In this document: positions 41,316 to 62,439 of the stretch, in pieces | How positions within the stretch are numbered: the first letter of the stretch is position 1 | Layout: every line of letters starts with the position of its first letter | Assembly: GCF_014931565.1 (NCBI RefSeq) | Contig: NZ_CP063353.1 | Coordinates: 3,224,001-3,288,000, forward strand | Origin: Clostridium sp. 'deep sea' | GTDB taxonomy: Bacteria; Bacillota; UBA994; PWPR01 | Direction of reading: 5' to 3' | DNA: 64,000 bases | Program-made: the position numbers and the translations under genes | The notes under the pieces: generated by a model | Databases searched by the model: none | Told to the model about the DNA's origin: nothing | Seen by the model: the letters and a program-made list of their open reading frames with translations, nothing else

Positions 41316-41488
41316 TATATAGAGGAGCAGTTTATTAGGTAGTTTAAGAGTGGAAAGGTACGTAATGCCAATATCTTAAATGAAGGTATAAATTGCCGAA
41401 AGGTATTATTTATTACGGAGTAATACACTTGGGAGTTAGGTGCACATAATTTAACTACTGTCATATCCAAATGATATGAGGCGCTATT
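41316..41488 (+). promoter_or_regulatory. lysine riboswitch (L box), copy 1
   Basis: Conserved L-box blocks in order: AGAGGAGC (41321-41328; consensus AGAGGUGC, one change), TTGCCGAA (41393-41400), CTTGGGAGTTA, ACTGTCA (41457-41463), a CATATC/GATATG stem and GGCGCTAT (41480-41487). The basal-stem 3' strand CTAT is also the start of terminator 1. Confidence 0.88.
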
Positions 41489-41516
41489 CAGTAATTTCAG
41501 CTGAATGGTGCTTTTT
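41481..41516 (+). terminator. terminator of lysine riboswitch 1
   Basis: 11-bp stem GCGCTATTCAG / CTGAATGGTGC (two G-U pairs) with loop TAATTTCAG, then TTTTT. Its 5' arm includes the aptamer's basal-stem 3' strand, so folding of the lysine-bound aptamer should prevent it. Confidence 0.88.
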
Positions 41517-41579
41517 GTTTTAAAGTTACAATGGTAGCTTACATAAAAATAAAAACATCGCTAAATAATTTAATAATGT

Positions 41580-41750
41580 ACATAGAGGTGCAATTTTCAT
41601 GGTAGTTAGTAACTGTTAAGAGTAGAAACACTCGTATTACTAATAAAGGGGAAAGTTGCCGAAAGATACCATTAGTTTTCTTAATACTATCTTGGTAGTT
41701 ATGCCTACATAACATAACTACTGTCATATCAAAGTATATGATGCGCTATT
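41580..41750 (+). promoter_or_regulatory. lysine riboswitch (L box), copy 2
   Basis: Very close to the L-box consensus: ATAGAGGTGC (41582-41591), AGTAA, GGGGAAAGTTGCCGAA (41648-41663), CTTGGTAGTTATG pairing with CATAACTACTGTCA (41713-41726), a CATAT/ATATG-type stem and GCGCTAT (41743-41749). It lies 63 bases after terminator 1. Confidence 0.93.
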
Positions 41751-41785
41751 CGGTGTGTATTTTTTCATGCTGAATAGCGTTTTTT
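41744..41785 (+). terminator. terminator of lysine riboswitch 2
   Basis: 14-bp stem CGCTATTCGGTGTG / CATGCTGAATAGCG, loop TATTTTTT, then six Ts. The 5' arm overlaps the aptamer basal stem as in copy 1. Confidence 0.93.
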
Positions 41786-45574: not shown

Positions 45575-45599
45575 AGTCGCTAATAAAGGGAGGATCGTA

Positions 45600-47168
45600 G
45601 TGAATAAATTAAATTTAGACATGAGCTTAGTTGAGAGAGCTCGTAATGCTGCTGAAAAAATTGCAGGTAGCGTTCAAGAAATGGTAGACCAACATACAAC
45701 AATTACTGTAGAAAGAACAGTAGCTCGCCTAATGGGTATAGATGGTATTGATTCTTTTGATGTTCCGCTACCAAATGTGGTAGTAGATCATGTACACCAG
45801 CAGAATAAAATAAGTAGAGGTATTGCTTGGTGGATTGGAAATGCAATGGTTTACTACGGATTAACTCCGCAACAAGTAGCAGAAAAAGTTGCGCTTGGTG
45901 AAATAGATTTAGTCAAAGTGCCACTGCAAGACGAAGCTGAAATCGATCAAGCACTAGATTTAAACACTTGTATGGCTATGCAAAAGATTAAAGAAAATCG
46001 CAATAAGAGAGATGAACTTTGCAAAATATATCCACCAGGAAAAACCCCACAGCAATATGTAATAGTAGCAACCGGAAATATCTATGAAGATATTACTCAG
46101 GCACGTTCTGCGGTACGTCAAGGTGCAGATATTATTGCAGTTATCAGAACAACAGGACAAAGTTTATTAGATTACGTTCCCTATGGTCCAACAACAGAGG
46201 GTTTTGGTGGAACCTACGCAACCCAAGCTAATTTTGCAATTATGCGTGAAGCCCTAGATGAAGTTGGAGCAGAGGTTGGTAGGTATATCCAATTAGTAAA
46301 TTATTGCTCTGGTTTATGTATGCCAGAGATAGCTGTTATGGGGGCTTTTGAGCGTTTAGATATGATGCTTAACGATAGCATGTATGGCATTTTATTCCGT
46401 GATATCAATATGAAAAGAACCTTTGTTGATCAATACTTTTCACGTATGATTAACGCCTATGCTGGGGTAGTTATTAATACAGGTGAAGATAACTATTTAA
46501 CAACTGCTGATGCCTTTGAAGAGGGCCATACTGTTACAGCGTCTCAGTTAATTAATGAACAGTTAGCCTTATTATCGGGTTTACCCCATGAGCAAATGGG
46601 ACTAGGTCATGCCTTTGAAATGAATCCAAACATCGAGAATGGTTTGCTTTACGAAATAGCCCAGGCTCAGCTATCACGTGAACTCTTTCCTAACTGTCCC
46701 TTAAAGTATATGCCTCCCACAAAATATATGACAGGAGACATCTTTAAAGGTCAAGTGCAAGATGCCTTATTTAACCTAGTTTCAGTTTTAACAGGTCAAG
46801 GAATACATTTATTGGGAATGTTAACAGAGGCTATTCATACACCATTTATGCAAGACCGAGCTATAGCTCTGCAGAACTCAAAGTATGTAATGAATACTGC
46901 AAGAGATCTGGGAGATGAAATTAGCTTTAAAGATGGTGGCATTATTCAAACAAGAGCAAAACAGGTTATTTTTGAGGCCTGTGAAATGCTTGAGGATATT
47001 GAGAGTATAGGTATAGAAGAGGCTTTATCTCGTGGTATGTTTGCAAATGTTAAACGCACCCCAGAGGGTGGTAAAGGATTATCTGGTGTTATTAAAAGAG
47101 CTAACAACTATTGTAATCCATTTATAAAGCTACTGCAAGAAGAGTTACAGCTTAAGGGGGAATACTAA
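45600..47168 (+). CDS. kamD: lysine 5,6-aminomutase alpha subunit KamD
   Basis: Large subunit of the PLP- and adenosylcobalamin-dependent aminomutase that moves the amino group of beta-lysine (or D-lysine) between C6 and C5. 522 residues, full length, with the TIM-barrel core. It is paired with kamE one base later. GTG start at 45600 after GGGAGG. No membrane segments. Confidence 0.94.
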   Translation: MNKLNLDMSLVERARNAAEKIAGSVQEMVDQHTTITVERTVARLMGIDGIDSFDVPLPNVVVDHVHQQNKISRGIAWWIGNAMVYYGLTPQQVAEKVALGEIDLVKVPLQDEAEIDQALDLNTCMAMQKIKENRNKRDELCKIYPPGKTPQQYVIVATGNIYEDITQARSAVRQGADIIAVIRTTGQSLLDYVPYGPTTEGFGGTYATQANFAIMREALDEVGAEVGRYIQLVNYCSGLCMPEIAVMGAFERLDMMLNDSMYGILFRDINMKRTFVDQYFSRMINAYAGVVINTGEDNYLTTADAFEEGHTVTASQLINEQLALLSGLPHEQMGLGHAFEMNPNIENGLLYEIAQAQLSRELFPNCPLKYMPPTKYMTGDIFKGQVQDALFNLVSVLTGQGIHLLGMLTEAIHTPFMQDRAIALQNSKYVMNTARDLGDEISFKDGGIIQTRAKQVIFEACEMLEDIESIGIEEALSRGMFANVKRTPEGGKGLSGVIKRANNYCNPFIKLLQEELQLKGEY

Positions 47169-47169
47169 A

Positions 47170-47919
47170 ATGAAACTAGATTTAAGCAAAGTAATGCCCT
47201 ATGGCGATACCTTAAATGATGGAAAAGTTCAACTATCTTTTACCCTGCCTGTACCAGCTGGAGATGAAGGCAAAGAGGCTGCTAAACAAATAGTACAAAA
47301 GATGGGCATGGAAGAAGTTCAGGTTACCCATTATCATGATTTAGGCGAAAACTACAGTTTTTATGTTGTATATGGCTCAGCAAAAGCTACTGTTGATTAT
47401 ACCCAAATTAAAGTACCCAAAGTTAATGTTAAAAAAATGAGCTACTACGAAATCAATAACTTTATTAAAGAACGATTAAACAGAAAAGTAGTAGTAGTAG
47501 GAGCATGTACTGGAACAGATGCGCACACTGTTGGTTTAGATGCCATAATGAATATGAAGGGATATGCCGGGGAGTATGGTTTAGAACGTTACCCCATGAT
47601 GGAAGCCTATAACTTAGGAAGTCAGGTTCAAAACCATGACTTAATTAAAAAAGCCAAAGAAATAGATGCAGATGTAATACTAATATCCCAAGTTGTTACT
47701 CAAAAAGATGTTCATATTCATAACCTAACAGAGTTTATTGAAATGGCACAAGCCGAAGGATTAGATGACTCAACTATCTTAATCATTGGAGGCCCTCGTA
47801 TTTCACATGAATTGGCCGCAGAGCTTGGTTATGATGCAGGATTTGGTCCTGGCTCGTTACCACCTGATGTAGCTGCTTATATTGCAGTTGAACTAGATAA
47901 AAGATTAAATACTTACTAA
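47170..47919 (+). CDS. kamE: lysine 5,6-aminomutase beta subunit KamE
   Basis: B12-binding subunit of 249 residues. The cobalamin motif D-x-H-x-x-G is at D117-A-H119-T-V-G122. Lys130, 11 residues after that His, is the expected PLP-linking lysine, matching the spacing H133/K144 known in the clostridial enzyme. The C-terminal Rossmann domain ends [15 protein letters not shown]. It is encoded immediately after kamD. Confidence 0.95.
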
Positions 47920-47936
47920 AAATGGGGAGGTCAATT

Positions 47937-48323
47937 ATGAAAGATGTAATGATTAGAATGAGAATGAGTTCTCATGATGCCCACTATGCTGGTGATTTAG
48001 TAGATGGAGCCAAAATGCTACAGCTATTTGGTGATGTAGCAACCGAATTACTAATTAGAAATGATGGCGATGAAGGATTATTTGTGGCCTACGATAATGT
48101 TGAGTTTAAAGCCCCTGTTTATGCAGGAGACTATATTGAAGCAACTGGCACAATTACTAAACAAGGAAATAGCTCTAGAAAGATGGAGTTTGTTGCTAAA
48201 AAAGTAATAAGCTCTGCCAATATTGTAGAGCAACCATCAGCCTGTAATGTTTTAAAAGAGCCTATTGTAGTATGTAAAGCAAGTGGAACATGTGTTGTTC
48301 CTAAAGACTTACAAAGGGGTTAA
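47937..48323 (+). CDS. kal: 3-aminobutyryl-CoA ammonia-lyase Kal
   Basis: Removes ammonia from L-3-aminobutyryl-CoA to give crotonyl-CoA. 128 residues, hot-dog fold, matching the known small enzyme. ATG 47937 is preceded by GGGGAGG (47924-47930); an in-frame ATG at 47922 is directly before that site and would be poorly translated. Between kamE and kce, as in other kam operons. Confidence 0.9.
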
Positions 48324-48329
48324 ATTACA

Positions 48330-49151
48330 ATGGAGAAACTAATTATAACTGCTGCTATTTGTGGGGCAGAAGCCTATAAAAAAGACAATGCAAACATGCC
48401 TTTATCACCACTAGAGTTAGCAGATGCTGCTTATGGATGTTATAAAGCAGGTGCCTCAATAATTCATTTACATGTACGTGATGAAAATGGTGAACCAACT
48501 CAAAGTAAAGAAATATTTGCAGAAACAATAAAACTAATAAAAGAAAAATGTCCAGATATAATTGTTCAGCCATCAACCGGAGGAGCCGTAGGCATGACTG
48601 CAAAAGAGCGTATGCAGCCCCTTGAGTTAGATGTAGAAATGGCAACATTAACTGGAGGAACAGTTAACTTTGGAGATGGAGTTTTTTATAACTCCCCTCA
48701 GTATATAGAACAATTTGCTACTGTCATGAAAGAGCGAGCTATTAAGCCTGAAATAGAGGTCTTTGAAGTAGGTATGATTCAAAACGCTTTACGTTTAGTA
48801 AAAAAAGGGTTGCTAAAAATGCCACTTCATTTTGATTTTGTAATGGGTGTACCTGGTGCTATTCCAGGTACAGCTAAAAACCTGCTGCACTTAGTAGAGT
48901 CAATTCCTAAAGATTGCACATGGACTGTGGCTGGAATAGGTAGAGCAGAGCTTCCTTTAGCTACTATGGCTATTGTTTTAGGTGGAAATGTAAGGGTTGG
49001 ATTTGAAGACAACTTATACTACAGATATAAACAACTTGCTACCAGTAATGCTGAACTAGTAGAGAGAATTGTGCGGATAGCTAATGAATTAGATAGAGAG
49101 ATAGCTACACCTAAAGAAGCACGAAAAATTTTGGGCATAACACACAACTAA
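48330..49151 (+). CDS. kce: 3-keto-5-aminohexanoate cleavage enzyme Kce
   Basis: BKACE (DUF849) enzyme of 273 residues. It joins 5-amino-3-oxohexanoate with acetyl-CoA and releases acetoacetate and 3-aminobutyryl-CoA. The Zn-binding H-x-H is in IIHLHVRD, and the barrel ends GNVRVGFEDNLY are typical. Six bases after kal. Confidence 0.95.
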   Translation: MEKLIITAAICGAEAYKKDNANMPLSPLELADAAYGCYKAGASIIHLHVRDENGEPTQSKEIFAETIKLIKEKCPDIIVQPSTGGAVGMTAKERMQPLELDVEMATLTGGTVNFGDGVFYNSPQYIEQFATVMKERAIKPEIEVFEVGMIQNALRLVKKGLLKMPLHFDFVMGVPGAIPGTAKNLLHLVESIPKDCTWTVAGIGRAELPLATMAIVLGGNVRVGFEDNLYYRYKQLATSNAELVERIVRIANELDREIATPKEARKILGITHN

Positions 49152-49176
49152 CGTATAGTATTTAGGAGGTACGAGA

Positions 49177-50421
49177 ATGCGTGATTACAAAAATATAGAA
49201 CTTTTTAAAAATGTTACAGCCGAAGAGTGGAATGATTGGCAGTGGCAGGTTCGTAACAGAATTACGGACATAGATACTTTAAAGCAAATAATTAACCTAT
49301 CAGATAACGAAATTAAAGGTATAAAACAGTGTTTAAAAACACTACGAATGGCTATAACACCCTATTATGCAACACTTATGGATCCCGAAAATGTAAAATG
49401 CCCAGTACGCATGCAGGCTGTTCCTACAGCTAAAGAACTTAATATTAGTGACCATGATATGTTGGATCCGTTACATGAAGATGCAGACTCCCCAGCTCCA
49501 GGATTAACCCATCGTTATCCGGACCGAGTTTTATTTTTAATAACAGATCAGTGCTCTATGTACTGTAGGCACTGTACCCGTAGAAGGTATGCTGGTGGAT
49601 TAGATAAAGCTCGTCCTAAAAAAGATTTACAAAAGGCTTTTAATTATATTCGCTCAAATACAAAGGTACGTGATGTACTATTATCTGGTGGAGATGCCTT
49701 ATTAGTTAGTGATGATTATTTAGAGTACATTATTAGTGAGTTAAGAAGCATTCCTCACGTTGAAATCATTAGAATTGGTACAAGAGCGCCAGTAGTGTTG
49801 CCTCAAAGAATAACACCAGACTTAGTTAATATGCTAAAAAAGTATCACCCTGTGTGGTTAAATACCCACTTTAATCATCCAACAGAAATAACCAAACCAG
49901 CGGCAGAGGCCTTAGCATTATTAGCTAATGCTGGTATTCCACTTGGTAATCAATCTGTATTACTTAGGGGCATAAATGATTGCCCATATATCATGAAAGA
50001 ACTAGTTCATTTACTTGTTAAAAATAGAGTTCGTCCATACTATATTTATCAGTGTGATTTGTCTGCTGGCATAAGCCATTTTCGTACCTCGGTAGATAAA
50101 GGCATTGAAATAATCGAAATGTTACGAGGACATACTTCAGGTTACGCTGTACCTGTATTTGTAGTAGATGCTCCAGGTGGTGGTGGCAAGATTCCTGTAG
50201 GACCACAATATTTAATATCACGCGTAGGAAATAAAGTAATTTTACGTAACTATGAAGGAGTAATTAGTGCCTATAGCCAACCAACAGATTATGTGAATCC
50301 ATGTACATCATGTGATCATAAACAGCACTTTAATGAGTCTAGAATAGGTATTCAAAAGCTCTTTGAAGATGAAGCATTGAGCCTAGAGCCATCAAATCTT
50401 GAACGACATAAACGACACTAA
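49177..50421 (+). CDS. kamA: L-lysine 2,3-aminomutase KamA
   Basis: Radical-SAM, PLP-dependent enzyme that converts L-lysine to L-beta-lysine, the first step. 414 residues. The 4Fe-4S motif C126-x3-C130-x2-C133 is in CSMYCRHC. The PLP/zinc-binding C-terminal region includes [17 protein letters not shown] and a late CTSCDHK cysteine pair. ATG 49177 follows TAGGAGG. Placing kamA after the mutase and cleavage genes is a variation of the usual cluster order. Confidence 0.95.
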
Positions 50422-50438
50422 TAAAGGAGGAGTAGTAT

Positions 50439-51218
50439 TTGGATTATCAAAATATTAAGCTCGAAATTGAGGATCATGTTGCACTTGTAACTATCAACAG
50501 ACCCAAAGCTTTAAACGCCCTTAACTCTACAACTATAGTTGAACTAGAAGATGCTGTAGAAGTAATTGCTGCAGATGACAATATCTTTGTTTTTGTTATA
50601 ACCGGAGCAGGAAAAGCATTTGTAGCCGGAGCAGACATTAGTGAAATGAAAGAGTTTAGTTCTGAAGAAGCCCGACGATTCGCAAAACTAGGTCACCGAG
50701 TATTTAATAGAATAGCATCTTTATGTAAACCTAGTATAGCAGCCATAAATGGTTATGCTTTAGGCGGTGGTTGCGAGTTAGCGCTGGCCTGTGATATAAG
50801 AATCTCTTCAGCTAAAGCAAAATTTGGTCAGCCAGAGGTTGGTTTAGGAATAATACCTGGCTTTGGTGGCACAAACAGATTACCAGCTATTGTAGGGGCT
50901 GCTAAAGCAAAAGAATTAATATTTACAGGAGAATATATCAAGGCAGATGAGGCCTTAAAAATTGGTTTAGTTAATCAGGTATATCAGCCAGATCAACTCA
51001 TGCCTGAAACAATGAAATTAGCCCACAATATCACTAATAAAGCCCAGTTAGCAGTACGATATGCAAAAATGGCAATTGACAAAAGCCTTTATGTTGAAAA
51101 TAACACTGCTAGTCAAATTGAATCATCCACATTTGCTTTATGTTTTTCAACAGAAGATCAAAAAGAAGGAATGTTAGCCTTCACTGAAAAACGCTCACCA
51201 AAGTTTAAGAGTAAATAA
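50439..51218 (+). CDS. crt: enoyl-CoA hydratase/crotonase
   Basis: Crotonase-family hydratase of 259 residues. The oxyanion-hole loops AFVAGADISEM and ALGGGCELALACD, and the active-site Glu stretch FGQPEVGLGIIPGFGG, are present. TTG start after AAAGGAGG. It would interconvert crotonyl-CoA and 3-hydroxybutyryl-CoA, giving a second exit from the Kal product besides reduction to butyryl-CoA. Confidence 0.92.
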   Translation: MDYQNIKLEIEDHVALVTINRPKALNALNSTTIVELEDAVEVIAADDNIFVFVITGAGKAFVAGADISEMKEFSSEEARRFAKLGHRVFNRIASLCKPSIAAINGYALGGGCELALACDIRISSAKAKFGQPEVGLGIIPGFGGTNRLPAIVGAAKAKELIFTGEYIKADEALKIGLVNQVYQPDQLMPETMKLAHNITNKAQLAVRYAKMAIDKSLYVENNTASQIESSTFALCFSTEDQKEGMLAFTEKRSPKFKSK

Positions 51219-51294
51219 AACAGAACAGTTATATACCGCCTGCTAGGTAGCAGAGGTGTATAACTGTAATAATAAAATTAATTGGAGGAGAAGT

Positions 51295-52140
51295 ATGATT
51301 AATAAAATTGCTGTAATTGGTGCAGGAACAATGGGTAGAGGCATTGCTCAAATCCTTATTGCCAGTGGAATTAACACCCTTTTATGTGATATAAAAATTG
51401 AGTATGCGGAGGCTGGCAAGGCTTACATAGCTAAACGTTTTGATAAGAGTGTTGCTAAAGCAAGAATGACAGAAGAGGATAAAAATAAAGCACTGGCATT
51501 ACTAGAAACTAAATCAAACTTAAAAGAACTAAGTGACTGTGACTTAGTTATAGAGGCGGCCTCTGAGCAGATGGATATTAAAAAAGTAATATTTAAAGAG
51601 CTTGATGAAATTTGCAAACCAGAGACCATTTTGGCTACAAATACCTCATCATTGTCTATTACCGAAATTTCACAAGCTACTAATAGACCAGATAAAGTAA
51701 TAGGCATGCACTTTTTTAATCCTGTTCCTGTAATGAAATTAGTAGAAGTAATTAAAGGATTAGCAACATCACAAGATGTAAATAATAGCATTATTGAGTT
51801 AGCTAATAAACTAGGAAAAACACCAGTACCAGTAGCTGAGGCACCCGGTTTTGTTGTTAATAGAGTATTAATACCAATGATTAACGAAGCTATTGGCATC
51901 TATGCCGATGGGGTTGCTAGTGCCCAAGATATAGATACAGCTCTAAAATTAGGTGCAAATCATCCTATAGGCCCTTTAGCTTTAGGTGATTTAATTGGTT
52001 TAGATGTATGTTTAGCTATTATGGAAGTACTACACACTGAGTTTGGTGAAGATAAATACAGGCCTCATCCACTTCTTAAAAAGATGGTTCGGGGTGGATT
52101 ATTAGGGCGCAAAACAAAACATGGTTTCTACGCTTATTAA
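51295..52140 (+). CDS. hbd: 3-hydroxybutyryl-CoA dehydrogenase
   Basis: NAD-dependent dehydrogenase of 281 residues. The Rossmann motif is [13 protein letters not shown]. The catalytic His is in [15 protein letters not shown], and the C-terminal helical domain contains [19 protein letters not shown] 51295 follows GGAGGAG; a longer in-frame start at 51256 adds 13 unrelated residues. It links 3-hydroxybutyryl-CoA and acetoacetyl-CoA. Confidence 0.94.
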
Positions 52141-52159
52141 GAAAAGGTGGGTAAATACT

Positions 52160-52813
52160 TTGAGTAAAATAATATCAGCTGAGCAAGCCTTAAAACATAT
52201 AAAAGATGAAATGACAATTATGGTGGGTGGATTTTTGGCAGTTGGAACACCTGAAACATTAATAGATGGAATCGCCCAAAAAGACGTAAAAAATATAACT
52301 CTTGTATGTAATGACACCGGTTTTCCTGATAAAGGTGTAGGCAAATTGGTTTTAAATAAACAAGTTGAAAAAATATACACAAGTCATATAGGAACTAATC
52401 CAGAGACAGGGGTTCAACTAAACAGTGGTGAAACAACAGTAATCCTAACTCCCCAAGGAACACTTGCCGAGCAGATACGTGCTGGTGGAGCGGGTTTAGG
52501 TGGCTTTTTAACCCCAACTGGAGTAGGCACCGTAGTAGAGCAAGGTAAACAAAAAATGACAATAGCAGGTATCGATTATTTATTAGAGTTACCTTTAAGA
52601 GCCAATGTGGCACTAATAAAAGCCCATAAAGCAGATAAAAATGGCAACTTAGTTTATCGTAAATCAGCTCGTAACTTTAACCCACTTATGGCTACAGCAG
52701 CAGATATCGTAATTGCTGAAGTAAGTGAGATTGTAGAGGTGGGAGAGATAGACCCAGATCAAGTAATGACTCCCGGAATTTTAGTTGATTACCTTGTTAG
52801 AGAGGAGCAATAA
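52160..52813 (+). CDS. atoD: butyrate-acetoacetate CoA-transferase, alpha subunit AtoD
   Basis: CoA-transferase family I alpha subunit, 217 residues, with the family signature in [12 protein letters not shown]. It moves CoA from butyryl-CoA to the acetoacetate released by Kce. TTG 52160 is chosen: AAGGTGGG (52143-52151) is well spaced and the product then begins [11 protein letters not shown] like its homologues; an upstream ATG at 52121 lies inside hbd. atoA starts two bases later. Confidence 0.93.
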
Positions 52814-52815
52814 TA

Positions 52816-53469
52816 ATGAGTGTTAAAGAAATAATTGCTCAAAGAGTTGCCAAAGAATTAGCAAGTGGAGATGTAGTTAATCTAGGAATAGGTTTGCCAA
52901 CAATGGTTGCAGACTATATACCAGAGGGTGTAAATGTAATCTTTCAATCCGAAAATGGCTTTTTAGGTTTAGGTGGTAAACCAGCAGAAGGAAAAGAAGA
53001 TAAAGACTTAACTAATGCCGGTGCACAGCCTGTTACAATACTTCCCGGTGGCTGTTTTTTTGATAGTGCAACCTCTTTTACCCTCATAAGAGGTGGACAT
53101 GTTGATGTAACTGTATTGGGGGCCTTACAGGTAGATGAGCAAGGTAATTTAGCAAACTGGATGATACCAGGCAAAATGGTGCCAGGTATGGGAGGCGCAA
53201 TGGATTTAGTTACTGGTGCTAAGCGAGTAATTATTGCCATGACTCATAACACAAAAAAAGGTGGAGCTAAAGTACTAAAAAACTGTAAACTTCCATTAAC
53301 GGCAGCTAATCAGGTTAATCTTATAGTAACAGAGTTAGCTGTAATTGAAGTAACAAAAGAGGGACTAGTTTTAACAGAAATAAATCCAAACTATACAGTA
53401 GAACAGGTTCAAGAGTTAACAGAAGCGAAATTAATAATTTCTGATGACCTTAAAAAAATGAAACTTTAA
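52816..53469 (+). CDS. atoA: butyrate-acetoacetate CoA-transferase, beta subunit AtoA
   Basis: 217-residue beta subunit. The catalytic Glu46 lies in the S-E-N-G motif of [10 protein letters not shown], and [12 protein letters not shown] precedes it. Encoded directly after atoD. The gap to the thiolase gene is 117 bases and holds a REP-like palindrome. Confidence 0.95.
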
Positions 53470-53534
53470 CATATTTATTTATAACTTTTGTTGTAAGCGA
53501 AATATTGATATATCATTGAAAATTAAAACCATAT

Positions 53535-53560
53535 TGTAGGGGCGACTTTTGGTCGTCTGC
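53535..53560 (+). repeat. REP-like GTAG-headed palindrome between atoA and thl
   Basis: TGTAGG then GGCGAC-TTTT-GGTCGTC, an imperfect 6-bp stem with the common GTAG head. It lies inside the lysine operon and might affect the level of downstream thiolase mRNA. Confidence 0.6.
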
Positions 53561-53586
53561 GGATAAACAAAAAAGGAGAACAAACC

Positions 53587-54765
53587 ATGAAACAAGTTGT
53601 AATTGCAAGTGCAACCAGAACAGCTATTGGTAAATTTAATGGAACTTTAGCAAATGTATCAGCTGTAGAATTAGCTAAAATTGTTATAGAAGAAGCCATA
53701 AAGCGTGCGGGGATTCAAGCTACTGATGTTGAAGACGTAGTTTTAGGTAATGTTATCCAAGCTGGCTTAGGTCAAAACGTAGCTCGTCAGGCTGCTATTA
53801 AAGCCGGTATTCCTGTAGAAGTACCTGCCATGACAGTTAACAAAGTATGTGGCTCTGGTTTACAAGCAGTAATATTAGCTGCTAGATCTATCATGTTAGG
53901 TGATGCTGACATAGTAGTAGCTGGCGGAACAGAAAACATGAGTCTAGCCCCTTACCTATTACCTAAAGCTCGCTTTGGCTATAAAATGGGTAATGGAAAA
54001 TTAGTAGATAGCATGATTAATGATGGTTTATGGTGTGCAATGAATGACTACCATATGGGTATTACAGCTGAAAATCTAGCACAAAAACACAACTTAACTA
54101 GAGAAGAACAAGATATGTTTGCTGCTAATAGTCAACAAAAAGCTGAAAAAGCCCTAGCCGAAAACCGCTTTGCAGCTGAAATAGTAGATGTTGTAATCCC
54201 ACAACGTAAAGGCGATCCTATTGTATTTAATAAAGATGAATTCCCAAGGGCAGGGGTTACTGCTGATAAATTAACAAAACTACGACCAGCATTTAAAAAA
54301 GATGGTAGTGTAACAGCAGCTAACGCCTCTGGTATTAATGATGGTGCGGCAGCAGTAGTTGTTATGAGTAAAGAAAAAGCAGACGAATTAGGAATAACTC
54401 CATTAGCAACAATTAAGGCATATGCCTCAGCTGGTGTAGATCCATCAATAATGGGTTACGGACCAGTTCCAGCTGTACAAAAAGCCCTTAAAAAAGCAGG
54501 CTTAGAGTTAAGTGATATGGATTTAATTGAAGCCAACGAGGCTTTTGCAGCTCAATCATTAGCAGTAGCTAAAGATTTAAACCTAGATATGAATATTGTA
54601 AACGTTAACGGTGGTGCTATTGCCTTGGGTCACCCAATCGGCGCCAGTGGCACAAGAATTTTAGTATCATTACTACATGAAATGGAAAAACGCGACTCAA
54701 AACGCGGCTTAGCCACTTTATGTGTTGGTGGTGGTATGGGTGTTACCGTAATAGTAGAAAGATAA
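53587..54765 (+). CDS. thlA: acetyl-CoA acetyltransferase (thiolase)
   Basis: Splits acetoacetyl-CoA into two acetyl-CoA; 392 residues. The nucleophile Cys88 is in [12 protein letters not shown], the His in [10 protein letters not shown] and the second Cys in [11 protein letters not shown] 53587 after AAAGGAG. Last gene of the lysine operon. Butyryl-CoA dehydrogenase and Etf genes, also needed, are not in this window. Confidence 0.95.
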
Positions 54766-55004: not shown

Positions 55005-55460
55005 CGTAGGGCACGACCTCGTGTGACATCAAATTCAAACAACCAAAAAACAAAATACCCTACCAATCCAATAGAAAAAATAAATTATCTAAAAAACAAA
55101 ATTTGTAGGGGATGTGCCTCTGTGCCATCCTATTGTATAGTGCCTAGTAAATATATAAATTAACACAAATGTATCCATACTACCAATGTTTTTCGTAGGG
55201 GACGACCTTGTGTCGTCCTGTATATGGCATATAAAATAAAATAACCATAAAAACAAAAAACCTTACCAATCCAATAGAAAAAATAAATCACCTAAAAAGC
55301 AAAACTGGTAGGGGATGTGCCTCTGTGCCATCCCGTTGTATAGTGCCTAGTAAATATATAAATTAACACAAATGCACCCGTCCCCAGCGTTCGTTTACTT
55401 TTATAATATAATTACAAATCCACCACATCCCCAACGTGTCGTCCTGCATATGGCATCTAA
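55005..55460. repeat. tandem ~190-bp repeats with alternating REP-like palindromes
   Basis: Unit 1 (about 55005-55193) and unit 2 (about 55194-55395) share a CGTAGGG...ACGACCT palindrome, the text CCAATCCAATAGAAAAAATAAA, a second palindrome GTAGGGGATGTGCCTCTGTGCCATCC (quoted in part) and ATAGTGCCTAGTAAATATAT. A partial third copy (GTGTCGTCCTGCATATGGCAT region) is at 55434-55460. The best palindrome is GGACGAC-CTTGT-GTCGTCC (about 55200-55218). Confidence 0.85.
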
Positions 55461-55649: not shown

Positions 55650-55678
55650 TTGACAATCCTAAAATAAGTCCGTATAAT
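55650..55678 (+). promoter_or_regulatory. consensus sigma-A promoter
   Basis: TTGACA (55650-55655), exactly 17 bp, TATAAT (55673-55678): a perfect consensus match. The predicted RNA starts near 55685, over 300 bases before the next coding start. Confidence 0.9.
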
Positions 55679-55684
55679 GCCTAC

Positions 55685-55804
55685 TTAATATTGAAAATTC
55701 TTTAACACGCTAAAGTATAATTCACTTTATTATTGTGCTGTTTATTTTTTAATACATTATAAATAAAGATTTAAAGAGCGGGCTACAGAGTCTGGTTTTT
55801 TTGT
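55685..55804 (+). ncRNA. candidate small RNA or structured leader
   Basis: Between the perfect promoter and a terminator-like hairpin (CGGGCT-ACAG-AGTCTG, then GTTTTTTT at about 55778-55804) lie about 120 bases without a reading frame. An inner hairpin is visible: AACACGC and GTGCTGTT enclosing TAAAGT-loop-ACTTTA (about 55704-55742). It matches no riboswitch class I can recall. It may be a free small RNA or an attenuator for the downstream membrane cassette. Confidence 0.5.
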
Positions 55805-55993
55805 AATAGCATAATGTATAAAATTAGCTCAATTTAAATATTTATAGATAATTTACACAATGTGATATTGAATGTTCAAGATTAAAATATATTTTTACAA
55901 TTTAACATCAAAAGGAGTGATAAAAATTTAACTGAGTTATAAATAAAATTCTCTAATTATTAAATAAATAAGTTTTTGGGAAGGAGCTTACTT

Positions 55994-56767
55994 ATGAAAA
56001 CAGGTGTTGTATTTCAGTTTCTATCTTTAATAGTTATTGCTACTATCATTATTTATAAAATACAAAGAGCTCAAAATGGCCTTGTATATAACATTCGTAA
56101 TATTTCTGGCTTAGATGCAATTGAAGAGGCTGTTGGCAGGGCAACCGAGATGGGAAGAATGATTCACTTTTCACCAGGAATTGCAGATCTCTCGGGAGTT
56201 ACCGCATCTCAAACCTTTGCTGGATTAGAAACCCTTGGCATGATTGCTAAACTAACTGCCCGTTATGGTGCAAAGTTATTTGTGTCTATTTGTAGGCCAG
56301 TAATATTGCCATTTGCTGAAGAGGTTGTTAAACAAGCTTATATGTCAGAAGGTTCACTTGAGAGCTTTAACGAAGATTGTGTGCAGTATTTATCTAGTGA
56401 GCAGTTCGCTTATGCTGCGGCTGTAATGGGAATCATTCAGCGTGAAAAAGCTGCAGCCAGTATTTTACTAGGTGCGTTTTGGGCTGAATCTCTCATGATT
56501 GCTGAAGCAGGTTTTCATGCTGGTGCTATACAAGTAGCTGGCTCAGCTAATATTCACCAAATTCCGTTTTTTGTAGCCTCTTGTGACTATGTTTTAATTG
56601 GTGAAGAACTCTACGCTGCAGGAGCAATTGCCTCTGGCAACCCTGTAAAAGTAGGTAGTATAGCAGGACAAGATGTCTGTAAGTTTTTTGTAATTGCTAT
56701 TTTAGTAGTCGGTAGTTTAAGCATAACTTTTGGCAGTAATCTAATAGCTAACTTATTAAATATATAG
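55994..56767 (+). CDS. membrane protein of unknown function (DUF6754-like), cassette gene 1
   Basis: 257 residues: N-terminal membrane helix (about 4-22), a soluble domain of about 200 residues (GLDAIEEAVGRATEMGR, HFSPGIADLSG, SANIHQIPFF), and a C-terminal helix (about 228-252). From memory it resembles DUF6754, which has no assigned function. ATG 55994 after GAAGGAG; an upstream in-frame TTG at 55976 precedes the ribosome site. It heads four tightly spaced genes that all encode membrane proteins. Confidence 0.75.
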   Translation: MKTGVVFQFLSLIVIATIIIYKIQRAQNGLVYNIRNISGLDAIEEAVGRATEMGRMIHFSPGIADLSGVTASQTFAGLETLGMIAKLTARYGAKLFVSICRPVILPFAEEVVKQAYMSEGSLESFNEDCVQYLSSEQFAYAAAVMGIIQREKAAASILLGAFWAESLMIAEAGFHAGAIQVAGSANIHQIPFFVASCDYVLIGEELYAAGAIASGNPVKVGSIAGQDVCKFFVIAILVVGSLSITFGSNLIANLLNI

Positions 56768-56778
56768 GGGGAAAAACT

Positions 56779-57405
56779 ATGAAATCTCAGGCAGTAATGA
56801 TAGCGGTTACTTTTGTATTTGCTTTAATAATAATAATTGATGGTTTTTTCTCGATAGGCTTTATTAGCAAAGCCTCAACTGAAATTCAAAACTGGGGAAC
56901 AATTATTGCTTCATTCTCATTAGGATTAGCTGCCGTTAACCTTATTCGTGTGCATATTCGCCGTGTTATGCTTCACAGGGGGGAGTGGTACAACTCTATA
57001 GCATTACTCTTAGTAATGATAGCTCAATCAATAATTGGATTTGTAGATACCTCTGCTGGCAAAATTTATAACTTTGGTTTTAATAATATAATGACACCCT
57101 TAGGCTCTACAATGTTTGCCTTATTGGCTTTTTGGATTGCCTCTGCTGCCTATCGCGCTTTTACAGCTCGTTCTATTGACTCAGCTATATTACTTGTAGC
57201 TGCCACAATTGTTATGTTAGGCAATGCCCCCATAGGTGAAACACTGTGGTCGGGATTTGCAGTGATTAAGTCTTGGATTATGGACGTACCTAATATGGCT
57301 GCCCAACGTGGAATAATGATAGGTGGAGGTATTGGTGCTATAGCATTAGGCATCCGTATATTAATGGGTATAGAACGAGGCCACCTTGGTGGCGGAGAAG
57401 AGTAG
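56779..57405 (+). CDS. polytopic membrane protein, cassette gene 2
   Basis: 208 residues with about six membrane helices and a short loop rich in Arg/His (RVHIRRVMLHRGEW) near residue 60. No recognised family or catalytic motif. Eleven bases after gene 1 with a GGGGG-type site, and 14 bases before gene 3. Probably part of one membrane complex with its neighbours. Confidence 0.75.
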   Translation: MKSQAVMIAVTFVFALIIIIDGFFSIGFISKASTEIQNWGTIIASFSLGLAAVNLIRVHIRRVMLHRGEWYNSIALLLVMIAQSIIGFVDTSAGKIYNFGFNNIMTPLGSTMFALLAFWIASAAYRAFTARSIDSAILLVAATIVMLGNAPIGETLWSGFAVIKSWIMDVPNMAAQRGIMIGGGIGAIALGIRILMGIERGHLGGGEE

Positions 57406-57419
57406 GGGGATTATATATT

Positions 57420-58244
57420 ATGAAATTTTTAATGAATATAGATAGAAGAATTATATATATCTTAGTATTTTTAGCAATAGCTATTCCAATGTTAAAGCCA
57501 GTTGGTTTGCCTTTTTCCATAAACGAATCTACTCAAAATTTCTTTAATGAAGTAGATGCGTTAAAGCCAGGAGACGTTGTTGTTGTGTCATATGATTACG
57601 ACCCAAGTTCTCAGGCTCAAATTGAGCCACAGGCTAAAGCAGTATTAAAACATCTGTATAATAAAGAAGGTATTAAAATTATTAACCTGGCATTTTGGCC
57701 ATCTGGTCCTCTATTTACAGATAAGTATCTTAAAGAAATGCAAGGATCTCATAATAAAGAGTATGGCGAAGACTATGTGTCCTTGGGTTATATAGCGGGT
57801 GGAGAAACTGCAATATCTTCTTTTGCAAAAGACATTAAAAAGTGCTTTTCTGTAGACAGATTAGGAAACAAAACTAGTAGCTTAGCCATGCTAAAAAATA
57901 TCAATAGTGCCAAAGATATTTCTCTATTTATAACCTTTGGCTCAGGTACACCAGGTCTTGCTGAACATATACGCCAAGTTCAAAGTGTTTATGGAACAAA
58001 AATGGTGGCAGGTATGAGCTCTGTTTCAGTTGCAGGTTATTTACCATACTATAATGCCGGACAAATTAAAGGTTACTTAAATGGTTTAAGGGGTGCCGCT
58101 GAGTATGAGACTCTTTTAAAAGAGCCTGGGGCAGCTACTTCAGCAATGGATTCATTATCTTTTGCCCACATGATAGTTATAGTATTTATTATACTGGGCA
58201 ATATTGCTTACTTTACTAATCCACAAAGAAAAATAAGGGGGTAA
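57420..58244 (+). CDS. membrane-anchored alpha/beta protein, cassette gene 3
   Basis: 274 residues: N-terminal helix (about 11-29), an alpha/beta domain outside or inside the membrane (DALKPGDVVVVSYDYDPSS, LGYIAGGE, FGSGTPGLAEHIRQ, MSSVSVAGYLPYY), and a C-terminal helix (about 247-265). The helix-domain-helix layout mirrors gene 1. No known function. Six bases before gene 4. Confidence 0.75.
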   Translation: MKFLMNIDRRIIYILVFLAIAIPMLKPVGLPFSINESTQNFFNEVDALKPGDVVVVSYDYDPSSQAQIEPQAKAVLKHLYNKEGIKIINLAFWPSGPLFTDKYLKEMQGSHNKEYGEDYVSLGYIAGGETAISSFAKDIKKCFSVDRLGNKTSSLAMLKNINSAKDISLFITFGSGTPGLAEHIRQVQSVYGTKMVAGMSSVSVAGYLPYYNAGQIKGYLNGLRGAAEYETLLKEPGAATSAMDSLSFAHMIVIVFIILGNIAYFTNPQRKIRG

Positions 58245-58250
58245 AAGTAT

Positions 58251-58838
58251 ATGCTTGGAACATGGTTAGCTGCCATAGGTACATTAGGGCTTATGTCATT
58301 TACAATTAAAGAAAATCCTTTTTACAGATTTGTTGAACATGTTTATGTAGGGATAGGTGCAGCACATTCACTTGTTATGGGCTGGGAGTCTTTAAAAACA
58401 ACTGCTTTTACTCCTATTGCTACAGGTAACTATCTTAAACTGATACCTGTTATTATTGGACTGCTGCTTTATACTAGATTTGCAAAGGGAGCAATATGGA
58501 TGTCACGTTATCCCCTAGCTATACTAGTTGGTATTGGTACAGGTTTAACTATAAAGGGTACAATTGGGGCTCAAATAATAAATCAAATACAAGCAACCAT
58601 ACTGCCATTAAATAGTATTAATAATGTTATTATTGTATTTGGTGTGATAACAGTGTTAATGTTCTTTTACTTTACTCGTAAAAACGACAATAAAATATTT
58701 AATGCCAGTAGCAAAGTTGGTCGTTATGTTATGATGATAGCTTTTGGCGCTTTATTTGGTAATGCTGTTATGGGTAGAATGAGCTTAATGATAGGTAGAG
58801 TTCAGTTTTTATTAGGAGATTGGTTAGGCTTACTTTAA
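58251..58838 (+). CDS. polytopic membrane protein, cassette gene 4
   Basis: 195 residues with about five or six membrane helices; a conserved-looking N-terminal segment NPFYRFVEHVYVGIGAAHSLVMGW. No recognised family. It ends the four-gene cassette and is followed by a strong terminator. With gene 2 it could form the membrane core that holds the two anchored domains of genes 1 and 3, which is inference only. Confidence 0.75.
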   Translation: MLGTWLAAIGTLGLMSFTIKENPFYRFVEHVYVGIGAAHSLVMGWESLKTTAFTPIATGNYLKLIPVIIGLLLYTRFAKGAIWMSRYPLAILVGIGTGLTIKGTIGAQIINQIQATILPLNSINNVIIVFGVITVLMFFYFTRKNDNKIFNASSKVGRYVMMIAFGALFGNAVMGRMSLMIGRVQFLLGDWLGLL

Positions 58839-58850: not shown

Positions 58851-58886
58851 AAGAGACTATGCTCAATTTTTAGCATAGTCTTTTTT
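58851..58886 (+). terminator. terminator of the four-gene membrane cassette
   Basis: AGACTATGCT / AGCATAGTCT stem, extendable by three pairs, with loop CAATTTTT, then TTTTT; 13 bases after the stop. Confidence 0.9.
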
Positions 58887-58920
58887 GACTCTATAAACTT
58901 TCTTAAAGTTTAGTCTTTAA

Positions 58921-59063: not shown

Positions 59064-60077
59064 ATGAAATGTAAATTTAGTACTATTGAAAAAAAACAAT
59101 TAAAGATATTTTTTATAGTAGCCTTTTTAGTTCCTATGTTATTAGGGGTGCTAATGGGCTACAGCTATTATCAAGGAAATAAAGTACATCTTTTTGCATT
59201 AACCTTTATGTTATATCCCGCAGCTGGTGTAATATTAGCTATTTATTTTACCAAAGATAAAGACGCCGTTATTCCCCAAAAAGCATATGCAACTCATTTA
59301 GTAACAACAGTATTACTTACCGTAATAACCATAGTGAATATTTTTAAACCTTCAGCAAATTTAGATTCACTTAGCCAAGTAATTATTTTAGTAGCTAGTG
59401 CACTATTTTTAATATTTGTTCATCATGAAAATCCAGAAATAAAAAAGAAATATAATCTTAATTTTAGGGGTCATGTCCATAAAAAACCTTGGATATACAT
59501 GTTGTTATTTGTATTATTATATATTACAAGAATTGTTTTTATAGCAGTATTTGATGGTGACTTAGAATCCATAAACACGCTATTTAGTATTCAAACATTG
59601 TTAGGTACTTTAAATTTAACTATTGCTTTTGTGTTTAGCTTTATCATGTTTTTTGGTGAGGAATATGGCTGGAGGTACTTTTTACAACCTTTTCTGCAAA
59701 AGAGAATGGGTAAACGTTTAGGTATAATTACTTTAGGTGTTATTTGGGGATTATGGCATCTGCCAATTATTATGTTTTTGTATAGTACCGAAACATGGTG
59801 TTTAGGTATAATTGGTCAACTTAGTACTTGCATTAGCTTAGCAATATTTTTTGGTTATGCTTACATGAAAACCAAAAACATATGGGTGCCTATTTTTATG
59901 CATTTCTTTAATAATAATTTTATAGCAGTACTAGTTGGAAATGTTGATTTTAAATACACTCTCCAGCTAAAAGACGTTGTTATTTTATTAATATCAAACG
60001 CAATTATATACGCTTCATTTATATTTGCAAAAGAATATAAAGCCAATAATACAACTAATCATAATGCTTCGTTATAA
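59064..60077 (+). CDS. CPBP family intramembrane metalloprotease (1)
   Basis: 337 residues, about eight helices. CPBP (Abi) motifs: EEYGWR (E-E-x-x-x-R), then GLWHLP and a third-motif His in MHFFNNNF, the metal ligands of Rce1-like proteases. Members cleave prenylated or other membrane proteins, or give bacteriocin self-immunity; the target here is unknown. ATG 59064 after CTGGAGA. Not closely similar to the next gene, so the two are separate members rather than a recent duplicate. Confidence 0.88.
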   Translation: MKCKFSTIEKKQLKIFFIVAFLVPMLLGVLMGYSYYQGNKVHLFALTFMLYPAAGVILAIYFTKDKDAVIPQKAYATHLVTTVLLTVITIVNIFKPSANLDSLSQVIILVASALFLIFVHHENPEIKKKYNLNFRGHVHKKPWIYMLLFVLLYITRIVFIAVFDGDLESINTLFSIQTLLGTLNLTIAFVFSFIMFFGEEYGWRYFLQPFLQKRMGKRLGIITLGVIWGLWHLPIIMFLYSTETWCLGIIGQLSTCISLAIFFGYAYMKTKNIWVPIFMHFFNNNFIAVLVGNVDFKYTLQLKDVVILLISNAIIYASFIFAKEYKANNTTNHNASL

Positions 60078-60254
60078 AATTACAAGCAGTATCTAAAACA
60101 TAAAAGTGTTTTAGTAAAGTAACTAATTCTTTTAGCACATATAAATAACTATGATAATTATATGCTTATTTATGTAATGTATAATTGACATAATTTAAAT
60201 TATATAATACCCTTAGTAAAAATTGTTTTCTAAAAATTACGAAAGGATTTGATT

Positions 60255-61079
60255 ATGAATAAACAGTTTAGTTTAAATGTCAAAAAAACATTGGGCTATT
60301 TTTTACTGATGATTTTTTTATTACAAGGTTTTAGTATAATAACCTTTTCAGTACTAAAAGGTCATCCGCAAAATGGAAATTTAATTTTATTAATAGATAT
60401 AGCTATCAGGTTAGCGGTCGCAGTCATTATAGTATTGCTTGTTAAAAAAAATGAAGGATTTTTAGGTATTAAATTAGTTGGTTATATTAATAAAAAATGG
60501 ATATTGGCAACAGCAGTATTTACTTTTGGATTACATATTTTAAACACCCAACTAACGAACTTCTTTTTACATATATTTCCTTTATCAGATAAATTAATAA
60601 GATTAGCTGAGCATTACGATAGTAATTCATCATTAGTAACAATAATACTTAGATTAATTTTAATAGCACCAATAACCGAAGAGCTAATATATAGAGGTAT
60701 ATTTGTGAATGGTTTAAGTAAGTTATATTCTAAAAAAACAACATTCATCCTTACAGCTGTTTTATTTGCAATTTCGCATGGAACTGCCCATCAAATTGCA
60801 CTTGCTTTTATTACAGGTATATTTTTAGCTTGGCTTTATCTTAAAACTGAATCATTACTATTAACTATAGGTGTACATATGGCAATGAATGGTTTACTGC
60901 CTTTTATAAGTCTATTGGGCATACATATAGAAGGATATACTAATGTAAACTTTGCTGTACCATCCTATCATGTTTGGTGGTGGGATATGGTCGGAATTGT
61001 GTGTTTAGTTTTAGGTGTTATATTATACAGAAATTGTAATAATAAAATTAATAATGCTGAAATAAACACAAACTTATAA
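60255..61079 (+). CDS. CPBP family intramembrane metalloprotease (2)
   Basis: 274 residues, about seven helices. Motifs are TEELIYRG (E-E-x-x-x-R), FAISHGTAH and HMAMNG. Start ATG 60255 after GAAAGGA; an in-frame TTG at 60249 is too close to the ribosome site. It has its own terminator downstream. It lacks the shared promoter motif that precedes the genes at 59064, 61237 and 62595. Confidence 0.87.
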   Translation: MNKQFSLNVKKTLGYFLLMIFLLQGFSIITFSVLKGHPQNGNLILLIDIAIRLAVAVIIVLLVKKNEGFLGIKLVGYINKKWILATAVFTFGLHILNTQLTNFFLHIFPLSDKLIRLAEHYDSNSSLVTIILRLILIAPITEELIYRGIFVNGLSKLYSKKTTFILTAVLFAISHGTAHQIALAFITGIFLAWLYLKTESLLLTIGVHMAMNGLLPFISLLGIHIEGYTNVNFAVPSYHVWWWDMVGIVCLVLGVILYRNCNNKINNAEINTNL

Positions 61080-61236: not shown

Positions 61237-62439
61237 ATGAAGAAAAAATACATATCACTAATAATGGTTGTAACATTGCTAACTATGTTAACAGCTTGTT
61301 CTACAACTACTACTGCTCTAAAATATACTACCGAGCAAAAACAAGAAGACTTTTTATTTGCATATAACGTGTTAGCAAATGAGTACCCCTTATTTGCAGT
61401 TAAACAGCGCCAGCATAAAGTACAATGGTTAGCTAATAAAGACACATATCTTAAGAGAATAACAGAGACCAAAAATGATAAACAGTTTTATAAAGAATTA
61501 GCTTTAATTATAGCTGAAATAAAAGATGGACATACCAATGTCGTTTCGCCTACTTTTTATTACTATGTACAAGATTTATTAAAAAATTCAGAAGTAAATA
61601 GTGATAAATTTGTTAATGAATTTTTAGTAGAGCCATTAAATGACTCCCAAGAAGACTATAAATACTGGAATGAAGTTTTTGGCAACCCCAAAAAAGTAAC
61701 TCAAAAAGACATTAAAAACAATACCAAAAAAAGCGTAGATTTTAGTAGTTACCATAATGGAGACACAATATATATTAAGTTTAGTTCCTTTTCAGTCTCA
61801 GAAGAAGGCTGTCAGCAAGTATATGATTATATTGTAGAAAACAAAAATTGCTCAAATATAATTATAGATATAAGAGATAACTCTGGTGGCAGTGATTTGC
61901 AATGGATAAACAATATAGTATCACCACTAAATAATAATACATATCAAAATAATAAATATATGGCTTTACGTGGGGGAGAGATTAGTGAAAAATACACAAA
62001 AATTCTTGGTGGAAATAAAATAGCTATCTGCGAACGCCCAGAGTTACCAAATTACCCCCCAGAAATATCAACAGATTTTAAGTATTTACTTAAAACAGAG
62101 CAAAAAATTGTACCCCAAAAACCTATTGGCTTTACCGGAGATATATATGTACTTACTAACAAAAAAGTTTTTTCAGCTGGTGAAGGGTTTGCTACATTTT
62201 GCAAACGAACAGGCTTTGCAACATTAGTAGGAGAAAGAACTGGTGGTGATGGTGGTAGTACATCTCCTATTTTTGTTAAGCTACCTAATAGCGGTTTATT
62301 ACTAAGAATGCGTTTGCAAATGACCCTTAACCCCGATGGTTCAGCCAATGCAGAATACGGAACAGCACCAGATATTGAGGTAAAAGCAGAGCATGCGCTC
62401 ACAGAAACCTTAAAAATAATTGAGGGTAAAACTGAATAA
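61237..62439 (+). CDS. S41 family peptidase, lipoprotein
   Basis: 400-residue tail-specific-protease-like (S41/CtpA) lipoprotein. Signal peptide with lipobox LTAC, Cys21. The catalytic Ser313 lies in VFSAGEGFA, the strand DIRDNSGG (211-218) shapes the active site, and VGERTGGDGG follows. A DGHT turn is at 97-100. No PDZ domain is evident. Own promoter and terminator. The 3' end is almost identical in DNA to the next gene although the rest is only moderately alike. Confidence 0.87.
   Translation: MKKKYISLIMVVTLLTMLTACSTTTTALKYTTEQKQEDFLFAYNVLANEYPLFAVKQRQHKVQWLANKDTYLKRITETKNDKQFYKELALIIAEIKDGHTNVVSPTFYYYVQDLLKNSEVNSDKFVNEFLVEPLNDSQEDYKYWNEVFGNPKKVTQKDIKNNTKKSVDFSSYHNGDTIYIKFSSFSVSEEGCQQVYDYIVENKNCSNIIIDIRDNSGGSDLQWINNIVSPLNNNTYQNNKYMALRGGEISEKYTKILGGNKIAICERPELPNYPPEISTDFKYLLKTEQKIVPQKPIGFTGDIYVLTNKKVFSAGEGFATFCKRTGFATLVGERTGGDGGSTSPIFVKLPNSGLLLRMRLQMTLNPDGSANAEYGTAPDIEVKAEHALTETLKIIEGKTE

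Follow-up and report, generated by a model that had tools for sequence, protein, structure and literature searches.

Near the end of a 64,000-nucleotide stretch of the genome of Clostridium sp. 'deep sea' (contig NZ_CP063353.1, positions 3,224,001 to 3,288,000 of the forward strand; hereafter, the window), four compact genes, denoted g1 to g4, follow one another on the same strand across positions 55994 to 58838 and are separated by gaps of 11, 14 and 6 nt (Table 1). A preliminary description of the window had singled out this group as an undescribed membrane cassette that encodes two proteins with a domain held between two helices (g1 and g3) and two polytopic membrane proteins (g2 and g4). 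The genes and their tight spacing are real; an in-frame TTG at 55976 is an alternative start that would lengthen g1 by 6 residues.

Table 1. Genes of the cassette and flanking features, in window coordinates
Feature	Position	Strand	Description
Promoter-like site, sigma-70 type	55650-55678	+	12/12 consensus match, 17-nt spacer; candidate only
Putative untranslated leader	55686-55993	+	About 308 nt, AT-rich
g1	55994-56767	+	257 residues; DUF6754; transmembrane helix, Rossmann-like alpha/beta domain (predicted cytoplasmic), transmembrane helix
g2	56779-57405	+	208 residues; polytopic membrane protein with about six hydrophobic segments; without known family
g3	57420-58244	+	274 residues; transmembrane helix, Rossmann-like domain (predicted extracytoplasmic), transmembrane helix; without known family
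g4	58251-58838	+	195 residues; polytopic membrane protein; without known family
Intrinsic terminator	58851-58888	+	Hairpin followed by a T run, after g4

The g1 product is a full-length member of the DUF6754 family (PF20539; E = 1.2e-87, 293.7 bits against a gathering cut-off of 27), with residues 6 to 253 of 257 aligned to model positions 11 to 255; a resemblance to this family had been noted in the preliminary description. No Pfam or NCBIfam family scored above its cut-off for g2, g3 or g4, in agreement with the earlier remark that no enzyme or transporter motif was recognizable, and a search of PHROGs with the cassette proteins yielded weak rows only. A member-by-member Pfam scan of the g3 family alignment gave none of its 72 proteins a match at E = 0.01; for the g4 (65 members) and g2 (73 members) alignments, the matches were scattered or weak, the commonest in g2 being TMD0_ABC (seven members, E of 1e-4 or worse). 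Sequence searches for relatives of solved structure returned nothing at E < 0.1 for any of the four proteins. Homology within the cassette was rejected by hhalign for g1 and g3 (probability 3.9%), g2 and g4 (2.3%) and g3 and g4 (0.8%), so that the 'matching architecture' noted earlier holds for topology but not for sequence.

The AlphaFold2 models of g1 (mean predicted local distance difference test score (pLDDT) 94.0, predicted template modelling score (pTM) 0.86) and g3 (92.9 and 0.88, respectively) agree with the hydrophobicity profiles: each has a Rossmann-like alpha/beta domain between two helices. The polytopic character of g2 and g4 likewise agrees with the analysis of hydrophobicity and topology. 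Fold matches of g1 include Sir2 (Z 11.6, 3.6 A, 144 residues aligned), phosphoglycerate kinase (Z 10.6, 3.5 A, 148), the RCK domain of MthK (Z 9.8, 3.0 A, 116) and transhydrogenase domain III (2fsv_C; Z 9.5, 3.4 A, 141); those of g3 include MT0777 (Z 9.2, 3.4 A, 140), TrkA (Z 9.0, 3.8 A, 139), the epsilon subunit of carbon monoxide dehydrogenase (CODH; Z 8.9, 3.2 A, 143) and transhydrogenase 1d4o (Z 7.8). As judged from the models, these matches are generically Rossmann-like and are tied with many unrelated folds of this type. A Foldseek search with the g1 model gave nothing at E of 0.001 or better; the g3 model gave 16 such matches, with template modelling scores of about 0.3, mostly to receptors and one to a trehalose-phosphate synthase. 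We take the receptors to have been crystallized with a fused soluble protein and read all 16 matches as, again, generically Rossmann-like.

The g1 domain is predicted to be cytoplasmic because positive charges come after the first transmembrane helix (TM1), and the g3 domain is predicted to lie outside because positive charges occur at both ends of the protein. In many other phyla, g1 carries an apparent signal peptide and an Ig/FnIII-like stretch (sub-threshold model matches only) ahead of TM1, an arrangement that fits a cytoplasmic location of the g1 domain. Near-invariant residues include R49, E52, E165, E171, Q189, D198 and E205 in g1; in g3, they are D118, E230 and N261.

A scan with a g1 profile of one genome per species returned at least 583 stretches, at least 571 of which were confirmed; from the 80 best came 79 loci, an uneven sample to which all counts out of 79 below refer. 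These loci come from Bacillota, Zixibacteria, Cloacimonadota, Eisenbacteria, Fermentibacteria, Neomarinimicrobiota, Caldithrix, Planctomycetes, Acidobacteria, Riflebacteria, Armatimonadetes and WOR-3 among bacteria and from Bathyarchaeota/Methanomethylicota among archaea. The genes g1, g2, g3 and g4 are present in 79, 74, 72 and 72 loci, respectively, and their order and strand are constant within cassettes, 87 of which, in 69 loci, are complete. The order, whose conservation the preliminary description had proposed as a check, is thus kept in roughly a dozen phyla, in both bacteria and archaea. The exceptions are few: g1 without adjoining g2-g4 (L054, L071 and L109), g1-g2 followed by an unrelated gene (L062), and inserted genes or longer gaps inside the cassette (L051, L036 and L048). 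In the Zixibacteria phylum, to which the genome with locus L062 (G044) belongs, DUF6754 was found in all 83 genomes of 90% or greater completeness, in 2 to 6 copies each, compared to none of 14 control genomes and 23 of 299 genomes of the window's own phylum.

The four genes are inherited together. Among 41 relatives of the window genome, g1, g3, g2 and g4 were detected in 16, 15, 14 and 14 genomes, respectively, the differences being due to fragments at contig ends; every one of the 15 genomes in this set that belong to the window's class encodes DUF6754. Across a set of 15 relatives, g1 is 42 to 66% identical to the window protein. Mirror-tree correlations between the genes, calculated for 96 cassettes including added own-genome copies, range from 0.76 to 0.82. 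When partners were swapped within genomes, the correlations averaged 0.66-0.73, and only 0 or 1 in 500 such shuffles matched the real value. All 20 g1-bearing genomes that were checked, including those of L054, L071, L109, L062 and L051, encode g3 somewhere. With respect to independent occurrence of the genes, the point on which the preliminary description had staked its case, the earlier reading is supported, g3 accompanying g1 in every genome checked; the complex can be called 'obligate' per genome but not per locus, given that L054, L071 and L109 carry g1 without neighboring g2-g4. No known complex was matched. We consider it very probable that the four proteins form a single complex.

In many phyla, the cassette is accompanied by three further gene families, which the preliminary description had overlooked. 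The first, cl1, comprises MutL-family proteins (PF13941; E = 1.6e-125) of about 600-630 residues, which we take to be ATPases of the ASKHA fold; two proteins from different phyla scored 419.9 and 398.7 bits against the PF13941 gathering cut-off of 27 but 225.7 and 214.2 bits against the cut-off of 475 for the NCBIfam GlmL equivalog (NF040745), and are thus members of the family that fall short of the equivalog. The second, cl0 (about 375-470 residues), combines a barrel-sandwich-hybrid region with a KOW-like end that scores below cut-off; RnfC_N exceeds its cut-off in the L035 protein (30.3 against 25.6), falls below it in L047 and gives no row in L075. The third, cl2, is a small protein without a family. 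Searches by sequence for relatives of cl1 and cl0 with solved structures returned none at E up to 1.

Several arrangements of these genes recur. In 26 of the 79 loci, cl0 directly precedes g1 or is separated from it by cl2 only, the usual order being cl2-cl1-cl0-g1-g2-g3-g4; cl1-cl0 follow g4 in five loci, and three loci show other arrangements. Among seven further Bacillota loci, three (L134, L135 and L138) have the compact order cl2-g1-g2-g3-g4-cl1-cl0, L137 has g1-g2-g3-g4-cl1-cl0-cl2-cl1-cl0, and L136 and L140 contain g1-g4 alone in the stretch examined. That these genes recur in no fewer than three different orders argues for a functional tie rather than a frozen neighborhood.

The genome-wide distribution follows the same pattern. 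Each of the 15 genomes from the window's class contains a long MutL gene, with a longest open frame of at least 611 residues, and the 10 other relatives with MutL above cut-off encode short forms, with frames of up to 490 residues. Across another 51 genomes from the phylum, a long MutL (best copy of 800 bits or more) accompanies DUF6754 in 10 of the 11 that encode it, whereas none of the 40 lacking DUF6754 has one, their best score being 152 bits (Fisher p = 9e-10, uncorrected for relatedness). The one exception, G205 (locus L139, 6510-9268), carries a strongly diverged cassette (g1 E = 6e-34) lacking cl0-cl2, at the same site, beside genes that we read as tsaE-tsaB-rimI-tsaD (the TsaD and TsaE assignments being backed by neighbor family counts), where relatives carry all seven genes. 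If the two are functionally tied, a cassette would be expected to diverge in a genome that lacks the long MutL, and G205 could be a case of decay in progress. Collectively, these observations make it likely that the cassette is functionally tied to the long MutL. The window genome also contains another MutL-cl0 pair (L126, 7852-11036) and a lone cl0 (L128, 8956-10038), next to genes that we read as encoding histidine degradation enzymes and an amidohydrolase; MutL-cl0 pairs may serve clients besides the cassette.

The window copy is one of nine complete four-gene cassettes in the source genome (one contig, 3.83 Mb); its eight paralogs had escaped notice in the preliminary description. Seven of the cassettes form a 22.6-kb tandem array at 2074364-2096929 of the contig, on the strand opposite to that of the window copy, and the ninth, more divergent one is located at 2170093-2172913. 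Protein identity between the array copies and the window copy is 64-77% for g1, 53-87% for g2, 47-68% for g3 and 56-85% for g4. Several cassettes have separate, mostly unrelated upstream regions. In archaea, we noted 9 listed g3 matches in G053 (locus L067), with a short fragment among or beside them, and 5 in G052 (L042), indicating that amplification is not confined to bacteria.

All four genes evolve under purifying selection, with ratios of nonsynonymous to synonymous differences (pN/pS) of 0.17 to 0.25 among the seven closer cassettes (c5 and c9 were left out of the pN/pS and dN counts as too distant). The most relaxed gene is g3, with a mean nonsynonymous divergence (dN) of 0.188, compared to 0.121-0.138 for g1, g2 and g4. 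The array cassettes c2 and c7, whose upstream regions are unrelated, are 98, 97 and 99% identical in g1, g2 and g4 at the protein level and 82% identical in g3, whose outside domain has sections with DNA identity as low as 63-75%. From the sequences, this pattern resembles the outcome of gene conversion that left out g3; it is a single event, without a counterpart in the sister genome. We count both the dN values and the c2/c7 comparison toward g3 being the specificity-determining part.

Considering the diversified outside domain, the two polytopic subunits, the conserved cytoplasmic domain and the ATPase-family partner, our first, tentative choice for the function of the complex is transport of a solute, probably amino acids or peptides. 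In this scheme, g1-g4 would constitute one obligate complex of the cytoplasmic membrane, in which g2 and g4, two unrelated polytopic subunits flanked by the two-helix subunits g1 and g3, would form the path for the solute; g3, with its Rossmann-like domain outside, would recognize the ligand, and g1, with its own such domain in the cytoplasm, would serve as a gate or docking platform. The complex would work with a cytosolic module that consists of the long MutL ATPase, the barrel-sandwich-hybrid/KOW-like protein cl0 and the small protein cl2, with MutL driving or resetting the cycle. The gene set, its order, its co-inheritance, the partner gene and the predicted folds of g1 and g3 come directly from the analysis, whereas the topology, the formation of a complex, transport, the ligand class and the coupling to ATP are inferred from it. 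A bolder version, in which the system is an ancient ATP-driven machine for membrane transport that belongs to a new class and is common to bacteria and archaea, with MutL docking via the barrel-sandwich adaptor and g3 setting a specificity that diversifies by paralogy, appears to us a long shot.

The proposed substrate class was suggested by genomic neighborhoods. The window cassette starts 1.2 kb past an apparent lysine-fermentation cluster (approximately 41921-54765) preceded by tandem lysine riboswitch aptamers (41312-41494 and 41575-41756, plus strand; 78.7 and 87.5 bits against the Rfam gathering cut-off of 30). The cluster encodes a 3,5-diaminohexanoate dehydrogenase (E = 6.9e-118 to 7dl3) and, as we read it, lysine 5,6- and 2,3-aminomutases, kal, kce, a CoA transferase and a thiolase. 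In other Bacillota, hand-picked neighbors include amidohydrolases, M20, M24 and M42 peptidases, asparaginases, a D-aminopeptidase and a gamma-glutamyltranspeptidase; 16 of 20 match hydrolase, amidase or peptidase families, and the other four are an aldolase, a DUF4438 protein, an S-Me-THD protein and a ferredoxin-type protein.

Several observations weigh against the transporter reading and its components. The 20 neighbors were chosen by eye, mostly for looking like peptidases or amidohydrolases, and a set of 100 picked by rule holds only 6 amidohydrolases (at least 2 from L033) and 4 M20 peptidases. Having rejected the amino acid neighborhood as strong evidence, given that any excess in the rule-picked set is no more than mild and lacks a baseline, we keep it as a hint. 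Membership of the window cassette in the lysine operon is not established because the cassette has its own promoter-like site. None of g1-g4 matches a transporter family, and the fold matches are generic. The 100 rule-picked neighbors include 6 with the ABC_tran domain (PF00005), as scattered genes; this domain, the hallmark sought for an ATP-binding cassette (ABC) transporter, has no match in g1-g4 or the scanned cl0-cl2 proteins. The extra divergence of g3 is not seen throughout: of 28 tandem pairs, 19 have g3 as their least conserved gene and 2 show a tie (some pairs share a cassette, and g1 is counted with its N-terminal extension), and the near-identical copies of the sister genome show no such excess. 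As for the partner genes, 45 of the 79 loci lack cl0/cl1 in the stretch, and although in 31 of these the stretch ends within 4 kb, 14 have at least 4 kb on both sides. In the window genome itself, the MutL genes lie away from the cassettes, with the nearest relative of the cl2-cl1-cl0 set standing alone at about 3124-3128 kb and four more long MutL genes elsewhere, and one genome (G032, 78% complete) has a cassette but no MutL match.

Two other explanations appear unlikely but deserve consideration. The complex could be a transmembrane sensor, in which g3 detects a ligand outside the cell, g2 and g4 pass the signal on, and g1 acts as a nucleotide-binding-like cytoplasmic effector that controls MutL and its clients. 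A predicted Rossmann-like domain on each side of the membrane, the many paralogs per genome with g3 as the most divergent component, and the separate, mostly unrelated upstream regions of several cassettes would all suit such a device. However, no kinase, cyclase or DNA-binding domain was found in g1-g4 or the scanned cl0-cl2 proteins, two polytopic subunits exceed the needs of a relay, and the strong conservation of g1 (42 to 66% identity to the window protein across 15 relatives) is more like that of a fixed working part than that of a variable effector.

Alternatively, and no less doubtfully, the actin-like (ASKHA) ATPase in the cytoplasm might power a platform in the membrane for exporting or positioning a component of the envelope; the signal peptide and Ig/FnIII-like stretch of g1, an N-terminal extension present in most of the inspected loci outside Bacillota and archaea, would then reach into the periplasm of diderm phyla. 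The presence of 2 to 6 copies in every genome of the Zixibacteria phylum is as expected of a housekeeping envelope function. Nevertheless, archaea and Bacillota, which have different envelopes, also possess the cassette, no secreted or surface protein is conserved next to it in all groups, and the g1 extension matches models only below threshold.

A membrane redox or cofactor device, in which the Rossmann-like domains bind NAD(P), flavin or corrinoid and MutL is a reactivating chaperone as in glutamate mutase, is less likely still. It could account for the Sir2 and transhydrogenase domain III neighbors of g1 and the CODH epsilon neighbor of g3, for the RnfC-type barrel-sandwich domain detected over cut-off in one cl0 protein, and for the position of the window copy next to the lysine-fermentation cluster; MutL is described in PMC4682846 as a chaperone for reactivating glutamate mutase. 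These fold matches, however, are tied with those of many unrelated Rossmann-like proteins, the conserved residues include no Fe-S cysteine set, there is no mutase among the seven genes, and the long MutL scores well below the GlmL cut-off. Finally, that the cassette is a selfish or phage-borne element spreading by duplication without a cellular function, as its high copy number and tandem arrays might suggest, is very improbable in view of the purifying selection on all four genes, its universality in one phylum and the outcome of the search of viral contigs, where no relative was confirmed among 16 pattern matches, an outcome that led us to discard a phage origin.

The flanking DNA was characterized as well. 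Promoter-like matches across the region are at the chance level (22 found compared to 20.9 expected), and because of this the site upstream of the cassette is a candidate only. The 'dedicated long leader' of the preliminary description did not hold up as a structured or shared element: its folding is at the level of shuffled sequence (z 0.03), no Rfam family matched, and it is mostly not common to the paralogous cassettes. A riboswitch in the leader was rejected for lack of both an Rfam match and excess folding. The 'strong terminator', in contrast, is well founded, with a hairpin minimum free energy of -16.3 kcal/mol (z -4.36) and none of 200 shuffles equally stable; it is absent from a general promoter and terminator scan, the rule of which, in our view, counts the T run into the stem. 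In several leaders, a second Shine-Dalgarno-like site and a very short open reading frame are apparent by eye before the g1 start, about 90 nt upstream of g1 in array cassettes (L029 and L030) and around 55913 in the window. The AT-rich gap ahead of the cassette contains a direct repeat of 149 nt in two copies (55028-55379; 87% identical, 203 nt start to start), and a unit of 49 nt is repeated at 55210 and 55436. Downstream of the cassette, we read by eye two adjoining membrane proteins that presumably are CAAX-type proteases (59064-61079) and, after them, an S41-like peptidase (61237-62439).

A search of the open-access literature on DUF6754, MutL/GlmL, Zixibacteria and RnfC turned up no description or function of this system and no mention of DUF6754 or PF20539. 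The observation and the central claim of the preliminary description thus hold, but the system is larger than put forward there: a conserved membrane system, apparently not yet described, that comprises four core genes and three partners and whose marker gene is universal in one phylum. A complex with this distribution, present also in about a dozen other phyla and in up to nine copies per genome, would point to an uncatalogued basic task of mostly uncultured organisms. Furthermore, the long MutL proteins, annotated by analogy with glutamate mutase, gain a different likely partner.

Comparison with known families and complexes places the system next to several of them without equating it with any. 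The Pfam entry for DUF6754, of which g1 is a full-length member, names a domain only, without genes 2-4 or the partners. Compared to the RCK-domain potassium channels and TrkA, the cassette shares the combination of membrane helices and a Rossmann-like domain, with MthK and TrkA among the fold matches of g1 and g3, respectively, but none of g1-g4 has a match to the RCK (TrkA_N) sequence family, and the g3 domain is predicted to lie outside the cell. The resemblance to domain III of the proton-translocating transhydrogenase, seen for both g1 and g3, stands amid the generic Rossmann-like matches. With RnfC/NqrA, the possible link is the RnfC_N-like barrel-sandwich hybrid domain of cl0, over cut-off in one of the three proteins scanned; no other Rnf/Nqr subunit is found among the seven genes, and neither g2 nor g4 matches a Pfam or NCBIfam family of integral membrane Rnf/Nqr subunits. 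Finally, cl1 shares its family with the MutL/GlmL of the glutamate mutase operon but is longer than the short forms of about 440-490 residues, scores far below the GlmL equivalog cut-off and has a membrane complex, not a B12 mutase, as its neighbor.

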